From Clostridiaceae bacterium (lineage in GTDB: Bacteria; Bacillota; Clostridia; Saccharofermentanales; Saccharofermentanaceae), in assembly GCA_012718915.1 (NCBI GenBank), contig JAAYBI010000086.1, forward strand, positions 1-60,512: 60,512 nt of DNA, read 5' to 3'. This document shows, in pieces, positions 53,771-60,512 of this stretch; positions within the stretch are counted from its first letter, which is position 1, and each line of letters opens with the position of its first letter. The notes below the pieces were generated by a model, which saw nothing but the letters and a program-made list of their open reading frames with translations, was not told the origin of the DNA and searched no databases. The position numbers and the translations under genes were made by a program.

Positions 53771-54128
53771 GTTATCTGAGTCAACCTGTAAGCCGGGTTC
53801 TGTCTTAGACGATCATCTATCTAGGCCGAACATTTCTGAACGGCTCAAGCCGCCTCCTCGAGACCTGCGGACCACAGTAATGTCTCTCCATGGCATTGCT
53901 CCGGGTGGGGTTTACATGGCCGAATCGTCTCCGATCCGCCGGTGGGCTCTTACCCCGCCGTTTCATCCTTACCTCTCCGAAAAGAGGCGGTTTGCTTTCT
54001 GTTGCACTTTCCTTAAAGTCGCCTTCACCGGGAGTTACCCGGCACCCTTGTCCTATGGAGCCCGGACTTTCCTCGTGAGCGCTCGTTGAAGCCTTGCCCA
54101 CGCGACCGTCCGGCCGACTCAGATAACA
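53771..54128 (-). ncRNA. rnpB: RNase P RNA (bacterial class A)
   Basis: The catalytic RNA of tRNA 5' processing, about 358 nt on the minus strand. P1 is a 12-bp helix joining GTTATCTGAGTC at the 5' end and GACTCAGATAAC at the 3' end. Universally conserved blocks are seen: GAGGAAAGTCCGGGCTC near the 5' side, the AGACAGAACCCGGCTTA block near the 3' end, and CCCGGTGAAGGC-type and GGTAAGAG-like joining regions. The promoter ends about six bases before P1. No clear intrinsic terminator lies before purM. Confidence 0.96.
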
Positions 54129-55085: not shown

Positions 55086-55757
55086 CTATAAAGACTGAAT
55101 CACTTTTTCAACATATTCGAGAACCGGACATAGTTCCGGTTGACCGAGCACCTCTTTCTTTAAAGTCTCTAATCGATCTTTCATGAACAGTTCAAAATAG
55201 CAAGGTCGTTCGGAAATAATAACCGGACCCAATACCGCGGAAATAATATCTGTCTGATATGCTCTTCCATTATACACGGCTAATATGCCAACATAATACT
55301 TATCTTTGTCTCTGGCAATTCGTTCATCTCGGATTTCAAAACCCCTGTCTGCCAAGAACGACCTTAATTCGCGAAAAGATCTCTGGGGCTGAAGCAAGAA
55401 CGTTGCACCCAATTCAATCGAATTTCCATCCAATGCATCTGTCAAAATATGTATTATCTCATATCCGCCCATTCCGGCAATTAAGACGGCGTCCGATTTT
55501 CTGACCCGGATAGAAGAAAGCCCATCGACACATAGTACTTGTGAATAATCTGAGAACCCCTGCTGTTTTAAATAATTCGACGTACGCTGCGCAGGGAGAG
55601 CATGAATGTCCGTTGCGATGACACGCTTTGCCAATTGATTTTCTAACACATACGAAGAAGCATATCCGTGATCCGAACCGACATCAATAAATATATCCAC
55701 CGGATTAAGGACGGAGATTAGATTATCCAATCGACTTGGCAGAATCGTCTTTTTCAC
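55086..55757 (-). CDS. trmK: tRNA (adenine(22)-N1)-methyltransferase TrmK
   Basis: A 223-residue SAM methyltransferase making m1A22 in tRNA. FIDVGSDHGYASSYVLEN is the SAM-binding motif I, followed by ATDIHALPAQRTSNYLKQ and IAGMGGYEIIHIL, both typical of TrmK/YqfN. The start is GTG after AAGGAGG. It comes directly after dnaG (9 bp) with no sigma factor gene between. Confidence 0.94.
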   Translation of the reverse strand: MKKTILPSRLDNLISVLNPVDIFIDVGSDHGYASSYVLENQLAKRVIATDIHALPAQRTSNYLKQQGFSDYSQVLCVDGLSSIRVRKSDAVLIAGMGGYEIIHILTDALDGNSIELGATFLLQPQRSFRELRSFLADRGFEIRDERIARDKDKYYVGILAVYNGRAYQTDIISAVLGPVIISERPCYFELFMKDRLETLKKEVLGQPELCPVLEYVEKVIQSL

Positions 55758-55766
55758 CTATCCTCC

Positions 55767-57635
55767 TTAAAACGAGTCCGGCTCGTCCGGTCGAATCTGT
55801 TGCCTCAGGAACTTCAAGTACTGTTCTACTTCACGAAGCAACGCTTGGTTTCGAATGCGATCTTGATTATTTATATGGCCGGAAAGCGAGTCAACAAGCA
55901 TCTTCTTTCGCTTCTTATAGGTTTCAAATCGAATGCGATAGAGCAAGTTAGTAAAAATGTCTATGACTTCAACCGTCAATTCTCTGACAGTGCTTTTCAT
56001 AATCATTCTCGAAAAATAGTCTTTTGCGGGTTTTCCGTTCAGCAATAATTCCGAGGAAATTTCAAGAAGCTTATTCACATCTATTTGGCCTTGCGCTGCT
56101 AACATAAAGACCTGTGTTGCTATCTCTCTCATATTGCCCTGAGAAAAATCCTTTGGCAGAGGCCGATCCGGCAATTTGAGATAAGCTTCCGGCTGCATAC
56201 ATATCATGCCGATAAAACGAATTTCATCTGCTGACGCATAAGACGTATCTGTATCTGACTGAACCGCCTCCTGCTCGCGCTCAGCAACGCTTCTAAAACG
56301 AATGGGTTCGCTGTTCTTGCTCTGGGACTCGGCCCGCTCTACTTCTTGCATTACGCTTGCGACCGAAACACCTAAACGCTCAGCAACTTTGCCGGCAAAG
56401 CGCTCTCGATTAATTGCATTGGACTCCCAGGACAAAAACGCGCAGGCCGTTTCCTGATAGACTCTAGGGTCAAATCGACCATCTACCATACTTTGATCTT
56501 CCGCCACCCCAATCAAGTACGCCATAACCGGAACCGCTTCAGCCGTCACACGGTGAAAAGCTTCAGCACCGTGCTCTCGAATGAATTGATCCGGATCTTT
56601 GCCGTCCGGAACTCGTCCGACGGACAATCGCACTTGGAGCGTGCTCTGGGAAGCCATTTTGGCCATCAACAACCGAAGTCCTCGAACAGCCGCCTCTTGT
56701 CCGGCACGGTCCGAATCATAAAACAGTACTAATTCTTCTGCGTAGCGCGACGCCAAAGTCATTTGCTTTTCGGTCAGTGCGGTTCCCAGAGTTGCCACTA
56801 CATTTTTGACTCCGGCCTGATACATCGAGATAACGTCCATATAACCTTCGACAATAATTAATGTCTTATCTCGAACCGCTTTTGCAAAATTGAGGGCATA
56901 TAGCGTGCTCTTCTTTGAGTAAACCGCGGTCTCCGGTGAATTTATATATTTTGGCATGCCATCCGCCAAAATCGTCCGTCCGCCAAACGCAATGATTTTC
57001 CCCATGGTATCAAAAATCGGAAACATCAAACGTCCGCGAAACAGATCGACCCGATCACCCTTTTTGCTACGGGTAAAAAGTCCGCACTCATCAATAACAT
57101 CATCGGAATAGTTCTTTTCCTTGAGATACCTGTAAAGTCCATCCCGAGAATCCGGTGCATAGCCCAAACCGAATGTTCGAACCGTACTGTCAGAAAGCTC
57201 TCGCTTTTTTATATACTCTTTCGCTCGAGCACCTTGGCTGGATTGTAATGTCTTATAAAAGAATCTTGCCGCATCCAATAGCGCTGAGCGGATTGCATCA
57301 CGTTTTTCGGCAACCAAGCGGTACCCGTCATCCTGCGGCTCAGGAATAGCGACTTGAACTCTTTCAGCTAATAATCTGATGGCCTCCGGATACGTGAGCT
57401 TCTCAATCTCCATGATGAAATTGATGACGTTACCACCCTTGTGACATCCAAAACAATAGTATATTTGCTTGCTGATCGAAACAGAAAACGACGGCGTATC
57501 TTCGGAGTGAAACGGACAAAGTCCAAATTGATTCTGTCCGCTCGTTTTAGTAAAACGCACGTACTCCCCAACCACGGAAACAATGTCACTTCGGGCGACA
57601 ACTTCCTCAATAATGTTCTCAGGAATCCCTGTCAC
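55767..57635 (-). CDS. dnaG: DNA primase
   Basis: Makes RNA primers at the replication fork. The 622-residue protein has an N-terminal CHC2 zinc finger (CPFHSEDTPSF then YYCFGCHKGG), the RNA polymerase core with TOPRIM acidic motif (TLIIVEGYMDVISM near 265, LVLFYDSDRAGQEAA near 320), and a C-terminal helicase-binding domain. The start is GTG after AGGTGGGG. rpoD/sigA, which normally follows, is missing here. Confidence 0.96.
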   Translation of the reverse strand: MTGIPENIIEEVVARSDIVSVVGEYVRFTKTSGQNQFGLCPFHSEDTPSFSVSISKQIYYCFGCHKGGNVINFIMEIEKLTYPEAIRLLAERVQVAIPEPQDDGYRLVAEKRDAIRSALLDAARFFYKTLQSSQGARAKEYIKKRELSDSTVRTFGLGYAPDSRDGLYRYLKEKNYSDDVIDECGLFTRSKKGDRVDLFRGRLMFPIFDTMGKIIAFGGRTILADGMPKYINSPETAVYSKKSTLYALNFAKAVRDKTLIIVEGYMDVISMYQAGVKNVVATLGTALTEKQMTLASRYAEELVLFYDSDRAGQEAAVRGLRLLMAKMASQSTLQVRLSVGRVPDGKDPDQFIREHGAEAFHRVTAEAVPVMAYLIGVAEDQSMVDGRFDPRVYQETACAFLSWESNAINRERFAGKVAERLGVSVASVMQEVERAESQSKNSEPIRFRSVAEREQEAVQSDTDTSYASADEIRFIGMICMQPEAYLKLPDRPLPKDFSQGNMREIATQVFMLAAQGQIDVNKLLEISSELLLNGKPAKDYFSRMIMKSTVRELTVEVIDIFTNLLYRIRFETYKKRKKMLVDSLSGHINNQDRIRNQALLREVEQYLKFLRQQIRPDEPDSF

Positions 57636-58374: not shown

Positions 58375-59820
58375 TTATGAATCTGAAGAAGCGGCCGAGA
58401 GCCAAATCGAGCACTCTAAACGCTTTTTCGCCAATTCACATCCTACCTTATACTCTTCATCCAAAGACCCGGTCGAAAAATATCGATTCGCTGCGCATCC
58501 GCCACCACAGTGATATCGCGCGAAGCAAGTTTTACATGACTCACGGTTGGGCATCAGGCGATCGTAAAAAATTTGAAGCGTGTTCTTGTCTAAAATATCA
58601 GTTGCTTCTTTGCCTTCGATCAAACGCTTATTTTCATCCAATATCGAATATACCGACGATACATTACCCATCAAATACTTCGCTTCACCGACAAACTGAT
58701 GACATGGATAGATATCGCCTTCCGGCGTTACCGCACAATACTCCGCACCCACACCGCAACCCTTAAGACGCTTGTACACACATGGTCCATTTGACATATC
58801 CATGTTGAAATGAAAAAAGTTCACCGGTTCTCCGGCAACTCGGCGTTCGTGAAGATAGCGTGCCAGTTTCTCATACTCGTCGAAAATCTTTGGCAGGTGG
58901 GATTCGTTGATACTATAATCGCAATCATCCGGTGCAACCACCGGCTCAACGGATATCTGGCTGGCTTCCAACACTTCAGCCATGTGCTTCACATCCTCAG
59001 AAAAATCCAGATTGTGACGCGTAAATGTGGCTCGAACATAGTGCTCGTAAAATGACGATTCTTCAGATTGACGCGCCGATGTAAATGCCCTAATACGCTT
59101 CGAAATCGGCTCATAAGAAGGCTTGCCGCCAATCCCCGGACGCATGCGATTGTGGACCTCCGGTCTTCCATCTATGCTGAGAACACAGTTCTTCATATGC
59201 TTATTAATAAACGCAGTCTTCTCTTCATCTAAGAGTAAAGCGTTGGTCGTAATCGTCAAACGGATGTCTTTACCGTGCTTCGGTCCTTGCTCGTTACAAT
59301 AATGCGTCAGCTCTACAACGACCGGCCAATTCATCAGTGGCTCGCCACCAAAAAAATCTATATCAAGATGCTTTCTGTTCCCGGAAGCTGCTATCAGAAA
59401 ATCAATGGCTGCTTTACCGGTCTCAACGCTCAGCATTGAGCGTTGACCTGTTCCGTAGTCCCCGGTGCCCGCAAAACAATACGTGCACCTTAGATTACAA
59501 TCATGGCATATATGAAGACACATGGCCTTTATTCTCGGTTGATCCGGATACAGATGGTGATACTCGTATTCCAACGGCTCGGCAAAAAGCGTGCCTTCCG
59601 CGATAATCGAATCAAAATCATTGCATATTTCTACGAGTTCGGAAAGTGTCGTCTGATGCGATTCGCTTAATACGCTTAGCAATTCAGGACTCGGCCTCAT
59701 GCCGTCAGCGTCAATATATAAACGAATAACATCGTATGAAATCTCATCCAACTCAAAAAAAGCACCGGAATCTGAATCGTAAACTATATGTCGATCTATC
59801 ATAAAAAATGCGTGTACCAA
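58375..59820 (-). CDS. scfB: radical SAM/SPASM maturase of the SCIFF peptide
   Basis: A 481-residue radical SAM enzyme that installs thioether crosslinks in ScfA. An N-terminal peptide-recognition part (HIVYDSDSGAFFELDEISYDVIRL) is followed by the CX3CX2C cluster motif, Cys108, Cys112 and Cys115 (CNLRCTYC), and a C-terminal SPASM domain with CGVGAEYCAVTPEGDIYPC, CKTCFARYHCGGGC and a final Cys. The start is TTG at 59820, six bases after GGAGG; the ATG beside that site is too close. An intrinsic-terminator-like hairpin separates it from scfA. Confidence 0.95.
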   Translation of the reverse strand: MVHAFFMIDRHIVYDSDSGAFFELDEISYDVIRLYIDADGMRPSPELLSVLSESHQTTLSELVEICNDFDSIIAEGTLFAEPLEYEYHHLYPDQPRIKAMCLHICHDCNLRCTYCFAGTGDYGTGQRSMLSVETGKAAIDFLIAASGNRKHLDIDFFGGEPLMNWPVVVELTHYCNEQGPKHGKDIRLTITTNALLLDEEKTAFINKHMKNCVLSIDGRPEVHNRMRPGIGGKPSYEPISKRIRAFTSARQSEESSFYEHYVRATFTRHNLDFSEDVKHMAEVLEASQISVEPVVAPDDCDYSINESHLPKIFDEYEKLARYLHERRVAGEPVNFFHFNMDMSNGPCVYKRLKGCGVGAEYCAVTPEGDIYPCHQFVGEAKYLMGNVSSVYSILDENKRLIEGKEATDILDKNTLQIFYDRLMPNRESCKTCFARYHCGGGCAANRYFSTGSLDEEYKVGCELAKKRLECSIWLSAASSDS

Positions 59821-59840
59821 AATCATCCTCCGTATAACAG

Positions 59841-59873
59841 AAAATAGTGAAGACGAAAAATCGCCTCCACTAT
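59841..59873 (-). terminator. attenuator-like hairpin between scfA and scfB
   Basis: In the minus-strand transcript two 13-nt arms (59861-59873 and 59844-59856, two G-U pairs, 4-nt loop) form a stem followed by UUUUCUG. Partial termination would make more precursor peptide than maturase. Confidence 0.75.
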
Positions 59874-59898
59874 CTCCGATCAATCAAATCAATAATAA

Positions 59899-60042
59899 TT
59901 ATTGGATTGCTTCGCAACTCTGGTTGGCAACGGTGCAACTGGTCTTGCAAGCAGACTGGCAAGAAGTCTGGCATTCGCCGCAAGCATGGCCTCTCTCCGG
60001 AACCTTAACAGTGGCTTTCTGAATCTGCTTAATGTGTTTCAT
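59899..60042 (-). CDS. scfA: SCIFF (six cysteines in forty-five) peptide precursor
   Basis: A 47-residue ribosomally made peptide too short for ordinary gene calling. It begins MKHIKQIQKATVKVPERGHA and has six cysteines at 21, 24, 28, 32, 36 and 43 with the family core CKTSCTVANQSCE. AGGGAGG lies seven bases before the ATG. SCIFF peptides are near universal in Clostridia and get Cys-to-Thr/other alpha-thioether links from the adjacent maturase (ranthipeptide class). It lies between yajC and scfB in the conserved order. Confidence 0.95.
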   Translation of the reverse strand: MKHIKQIQKATVKVPERGHACGECQTSCQSACKTSCTVANQSCEAIQ

Positions 60043-60054
60043 AATAAACCTCCC

Positions 60055-60405
60055 TTATTCTGCGATTTCACGCTTAATGATCGTACTAATAGCCGTCTTC
60101 TTAAATGATACCATTGTGTGCGCAATACTTGTAGTAATTGTAATCTCGTCATCTTTAATGTTGGCAACCGTACCGGTAATACCACCGATTGTTACAATCT
60201 TGTCACCGACCGTTATAGCATCGACCGCTTTGCGAAGTTCTTTCTCCTTCTTTCGCTGCGGACGAATAGAGACAAAATACATTAAGCCAAACACGGCAAT
60301 CAACATCAGTATCGGAATAAGCGTATCTAAAAGACCCATACTAGGCAATGATTCGCCTGTCGCTTCCGTCACAGCCGGTTCTGAAGCCAATAAATAATAA
60401 ATCAT
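60055..60405 (-). CDS. yajC: preprotein translocase subunit YajC
   Basis: A 116-residue Sec accessory protein with one transmembrane helix (about residues 24-45, LLDTLIPILMLIAVFGLMYF) followed by the YajC signature RPQRKKEKELRKAVDAITVGDKIVTIGGI and a small cytosolic domain. The ATG at 60405 follows GGAGG; an adjacent TTG is less likely. It is the first gene of the yajC-scfA-scfB unit; secD and secF, often nearby, are not seen. Confidence 0.94.
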   Translation of the reverse strand: MIYYLLASEPAVTEATGESLPSMGLLDTLIPILMLIAVFGLMYFVSIRPQRKKEKELRKAVDAITVGDKIVTIGGITGTVANIKDDEITITTSIAHTMVSFKKTAISTIIKREIAE

Positions 60406-60442
60406 CAAATTTCCTCCAAAAGTATCTCAAAATGTACAGCTC

Positions 60443-60472
60443 ATTGTAACACTGGAAAACAAAAAGTGGCAA
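60443..60472 (-). promoter_or_regulatory. promoter of yajC-scfA-scfB
   Basis: Minus strand TTGCCA (complement of 60467-60472), 18-bp spacer, TACAAT (complement of 60443-60448), about 38 bp before the yajC start. Confidence 0.65.
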
Positions 60473-60473
60473 G

Positions 60474-60512
60474 TCATTTGTGATTGATGTTCTTCACCTT
60501 GATGTTCTTCAC
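60474..60512 (-). CDS. possible 3' end of an upstream gene (partial)
   Basis: The minus strand is open from the right edge to a TGA at 60474-60476, reading VKNIKVKNINHK. The peptide repeats because the DNA is a 15-bp tandem repeat. It could be the tail of a gene or noncoding repeat sequence; too little is visible to decide. Confidence 0.2.
   Translation of the reverse strand: MKNIKVKNINHK
60484..60512. repeat. 15-bp tandem repeat at the right edge
   Basis: TTGATGTTCTTCACC is present at 60484-60498 and again, cut by the window edge, at 60499-60512. The number of further copies is unknown. Confidence 0.8.

Follow-up and report, generated by a model that had tools for sequence, protein, structure and literature searches.

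A terminator-like hairpin between the SCIFF precursor and maturase genes recurs across Clostridia and probably keeps the maturase scarce

The genes for a SCIFF precursor peptide (scfA) and its maturase (scfB) lie at the right end of a 60,512-nt stretch of clostridial DNA (the window), on the minus strand and in the order yajC, scfA, scfB, and a stable hairpin falls between them. We asked what this hairpin does to the supply of maturase relative to that of peptide, and whether it belongs to the locus beyond this genome. A search of the open literature returned no paper joining SCIFF with a terminator, and PMC6284299 and PMC4289311 contain no SCIFF text.

The yajC-scfA-scfB locus and its neighbours

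As listed in Table 1, the elements named in a preliminary description of this DNA, i.e. a promoter, yajC, a 47-residue peptide with six Cys, a hairpin and a maturase with a TTG start, are all present on the minus strand. ScfA, with six Cys, exceeds the 50-bit curated score for a SCIFF precursor, and ScfB is a full-length radical SAM and SPASM protein scoring above 425 bits, in which the Pfam radical SAM and SPASM domains are also matched. ScfA is the sole SCIFF match in its own genome. Two more radical SAM/SPASM proteins of this genome (G000:C53:18034-19053 and G000:C92:10867-11832, loci L148 and L149) fall below the ScfB cut-off. The locus resembles the CteA/CteB system of Clostridium thermocellum in that precursor and maturase exceed the TIGR03973 and TIGR03974 cut-offs and in that Cys32, Thr34, and Thr37 of ScfA coincide with the cross-link positions reported for CteA (PMC8326336); further, ScfB could be aligned over its length to CteB (structures 5WGG/5WHY, E 1e-131), and the thioether acceptor and donor residues are conserved in ScfA. 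We conclude that ScfA and ScfB belong to known families and that this is an ordinary SCIFF locus, and a Cys-Thr non-alpha thioether is predicted for the ScfA product.

Table 1. Features of the yajC-scfA-scfB locus (positions in the window)
Feature	Position	Strand	Details
Promoter-like site, TTGCCA-18-TACAAT, extended -10 (TGt)	60443..60472	-	consensus scan, 10/12 matches
yajC	60055..60408	-	TIGR00739 80.2 bits (cut-off 44.2); PF02699 over cut-off
scfA, SCIFF precursor, 47 aa, six Cys	59899..60042	-	TIGR03973 71.4 bits (cut-off 50); PF13165 71.6 bits (cut-off 27)
scfA-scfB intercistronic hairpin	59835..59882	-	17 continuous pairs 59877-59861/59856-59840; 21 pairs with one mismatch
U-rich tail (UAUUUUCUGUU)	59836..59846	-	6 U among first 8 after core stem
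scfB Shine-Dalgarno GGAGG	59827..59831	-	6 nt before TTG
scfB, radical SAM/SPASM maturase, 481 aa, TTG start	58375..59820	-	TIGR03974 515 bits (cut-off 425)

The gap between yajC and scfA is 12 nt and holds no terminator. In a relative of the same genus (L032), both hexamers of the promoter-like site and their 18-nt spacing are kept, and the bases between them differ. The window is an entire contig (G000:C77) and ends 104 bases above yajC, so it gives no view of exporter genes upstream; in relatives, queA and tgt occupy this region. A 15-bp tandem repeat (TTGATGTTCTTCACC, 1.9 copies) at 60484-60512 lies exactly at the contig end and perhaps caused the assembly break. At 55086-57635 of the window, trmK and nif3 come immediately after dnaG, with no rpoD, which often sits between dnaG and trmK in Firmicutes. 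Below the nif3 gene, the RNase P RNA (RF00010, 289.8 bits) occupies 53773-54121 on the minus strand, and open reading frames called over this RNA are not genuine.

The preliminary description had read the proximity of YajC, and with it Sec, as a hint to the destination of the peptide; comparison with other genomes did not sustain this. In two other families of the order, f3 and f4, most genomes have both SecD and SecF, but matches in the window's family (f1) are few and marginal, and the genome of the window itself has none. SecD/SecF are thus apparently missing from f1 while YajC, present in 58/58 genomes, is kept. Unlike the CteA/CteB system, the window locus belongs to a family with no convincing SecDF, adjoins yajC, and has no TIGR04086 neighbour. 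Outside the window's order, the gene immediately before scfA encodes the TIGR04086 membrane protein in 30/69 loci, and TIGR04086 genes over cut-off occur in 208/291 genomes of the class and in 0/58 relatives (the window's order); PF12670 is absent from the genome of the window. In the sister genera (g2 and g4), yajC lies on a different contig from scfA, and the scfA-hairpin-scfB unit persists; a hairpin tied to yajC was rejected on this ground. The unit outlives each of its neighbours (TIGR04086, SecDF, and yajC), and the closeness of yajC therefore says little about export.

The hairpin in the window and across the class

The 13-bp hairpin of the preliminary description is found as a core at 59873-59861/59856-59844, but the full helix is larger, with 17-21 pairs. 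Likewise, the U-run said to follow it exists as a U-rich tail but is imperfect. A G-C-closed core stem at 59870-59847 (GUGGAGGCGA/UCGUCUUCAC) leads into a U-tract that is interrupted, with a longest run of 4, and partly pulled into the stem base, and that we regard as adequate; as in an intrinsic terminator, a G-C-containing stem is joined to a U-rich tract on the transcribed strand. The 111-nt stretch containing the hairpin has a minimum free energy of -33.4 kcal/mol (z -5.3), a value equalled by 0/200 shuffles, and among 6046 windows of 60 nt from both strands, the one at the hairpin ranks second in stability. A simple terminator scan did not list the window hairpin, and no known RNA family (Rfam) exceeded threshold near the locus. 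The idea of a dispersed repeat or mobile hairpin was rejected, as this is the sole copy in the genome.

To place the hairpin in a wider setting, we searched for SCIFF in 58 relatives and 291 genomes of the class and found it in 49/58 and 245/291, respectively. These two sets, together with a single scan over contigs of named genomes, yielded 118 scfA-scfB junctions, with a spacer of at least 30 nt in 100/118 and of less than 30 nt in 18/118. A first scan missed stems with loops of more than 9 nt and mis-scored tails at A-U stem bases, and was followed by a strict scan (energy of -7 kcal/mol or lower and 5 or more U in 8); the control was an equal-length stretch upstream of scfA, in place of genome-wide gap statistics. 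The strict scan detected a terminator-like hairpin in 82/100 spacers, compared with 1.5 in shuffles, 1/100 in the upstream control, and 26 on the reverse strand, percentages that are not clean probabilities given the phylogenetic non-independence of the loci. The excess of the coding strand (82 versus 26) indicates that the hairpin is strand-biased. When either scan was accepted, 93/100 spacers, in 35/42 families, carried such a hairpin. The sequences of the hairpins are wholly different between families. The helix was alignable within the window's order, where 96.1% of cells are paired versus 41-65% for slid partners, changes on both sides occur in 9/15 pairs, and no shuffle attains the covariation score. 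The comparison proposed in the preliminary description for an attenuator thus came out in its favour, with a hairpin in close relatives, compensatory changes, and recurrence among families.

How the hairpin may act on scfB

We consider it most likely that the recurrent intercistronic hairpin is a partial terminator, and that it probably keeps the maturase scarce relative to the peptide. For the window, a model that we judge likely as a whole runs as follows. The three genes would be co-transcribed from the promoter above yajC, and RNA polymerase would encounter a partial intrinsic terminator right after scfA. Most transcripts would stop at the hairpin, and the abundant yajC-scfA mRNA so formed would be protected by it at the 3' end; the smaller part would continue into scfB. 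The maturase would then be translated from its TTG start with the aid of a good Shine-Dalgarno sequence, so that many precursor peptides would be made per maturase, which would install the Cys-Thr thioether. Partial termination, its efficiency, the excess of peptide, and the chemistry in this organism are here predicted from sequence. The stem begins at a median of 29 nt past the scfA stop codon and is thus clear of the terminating ribosome. Against the model stand the imperfect U-tract of the window, hairpins without a U-tract in two families, and spacers of 150-330 nt.

First, the long spacers have room for a separate promoter, and the hairpin could accordingly be a full terminator, with scfB served by a promoter of its own. 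Near-perfect terminators in some relatives (18/82 are strong and lie no more than 45 nt from scfB) and the length of certain spacers fit such an arrangement. In the window, however, the distance from the core stem to the scfB TTG is 26 nt, and a consensus promoter scan, the one method applied here, found no promoter-like site within scfA or the scfA-scfB spacer; across the strict-scan junctions, the stem lies at most 45 nt from scfB in 52/82. As 26 nt is too short for another promoter, scfB most likely depends on read-through, and we regard a full terminator as very improbable.

Second, the hairpin could mainly serve mRNA processing or stability: the whole operon would be transcribed, an RNase would cut near the stem, the scfA part would be protected, and the scfB mRNA would decay faster. 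The window helix, with its 17-21 pairs, exceeds what a terminator needs, and very stable hairpins without a U-tract occur in families f25 and f43 (L108, L139, and L131); these particular hairpins are better explained by RNA processing or protection than by termination. As a general account, processing has to contend with the U-rich tail on the coding strand, which the strict scan found in 82 of the 100 spacers as opposed to 26 on the reverse strand, and with the common runs of 5-7 U, and we think it unlikely.

Third, termination could be regulated through an antiterminator, a ligand, or a protein, such that the maturase level would answer a signal. That the device is kept throughout the class despite its changing sequence could be understood in this way. 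The same turnover of hairpin sequence between families nonetheless speaks against it, as does the lack of an Rfam match. Further, over 82 loci the 5'-arm shows no excess pairing with upstream RNA (mean z -0.14, with 2% below -2); this makes a switch less likely and led us to reject a conserved antiterminator. We give a regulated terminator hardly any probability.

Partial termination at such a position would have a counterpart in lantibiotic operons of the nisA-nisB type, in which a hairpin between the precursor gene and the gene of the modifying enzyme is thought to permit limited read-through and to keep the precursor in excess. Those attenuators, however, sit in bacteriocin operons of sporadic occurrence, whereas SCIFF loci are near-universal in the class and the sequence of their hairpin changes from one family to the next.

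The scfB start and the peptide-to-maturase ratio

The preliminary description had paired the hairpin with a weak TTG start of scfB. The TTG itself found support: relatives have M[IV]H.[FY] where ScfB has MVHAFFMIDRHIV, and homology together with Shine-Dalgarno spacing favours TTG 59820 over the other candidate starts, TTG 59883 and ATG 59826. The weakness of the start held up less well, given the strong GGAGG before it. TTG starts occur in 23 of the 47 loci that are family-assigned in the window's order versus 8/71 others, and ATG is used in 59 of these 71. With ATG prevailing in the remaining loci, and with a well-placed Shine-Dalgarno sequence before the TTG of the window, weak initiation does not belong to the device in general; TTG may lower ScfB translation somewhat, as a lineage trait.

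The spacer-less junctions (less than 30 nt) differ from the rest in the Shine-Dalgarno sequence of scfB, which is lacking in 14/18 of them and present in 91/100 junctions with a spacer; scfA has one in 17/18 of the spacer-less loci. The Fisher value for this association (3e-9) is not a clean probability and overstates the case, since the 18 loci are not independent; they are spread over families f2, f3, f4, f5, f31, f36, and f52 and unassigned Clostridia metagenome-assembled genomes. The pattern suggests a second route to scarce maturase. For two Peptostreptococcaceae-type scfB relatives (L045 and L046, upstream of 4001), the roughly 1.4 kb before the gene contain no scfA, and these are possibly orphan or separated maturases.

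The simplest reading of hairpins and spacer-less junctions, one inferred from comparative sequence data, would be that there is an advantage in making little maturase, attained in two ways. Taken further, the scfA-scfB junction could be a selected set-point for the peptide-to-maturase ratio throughout the class, held mostly by hairpins that are rebuilt time and again in new sequence and, in spacer-less lineages, mostly by the absence of an scfB Shine-Dalgarno sequence; we put this forward tentatively, at a little below even chances. If it were true, a large excess of peptide would point to a stoichiometric role (a carrier, a metal or redox store, or a structural part) or to a titrated signal. 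A junction that always favoured peptide over enzyme would mean that the peptide is needed in bulk and would constrain any function proposed for SCIFF, and, with SCIFF in most genomes of the class, the constraint would concern a near-universal RiPP. For C. beijerinckii, SCIFF peptides have been reported to affect quorum sensing and sporulation (Chen et al. 2020, as cited in PMC8102284).
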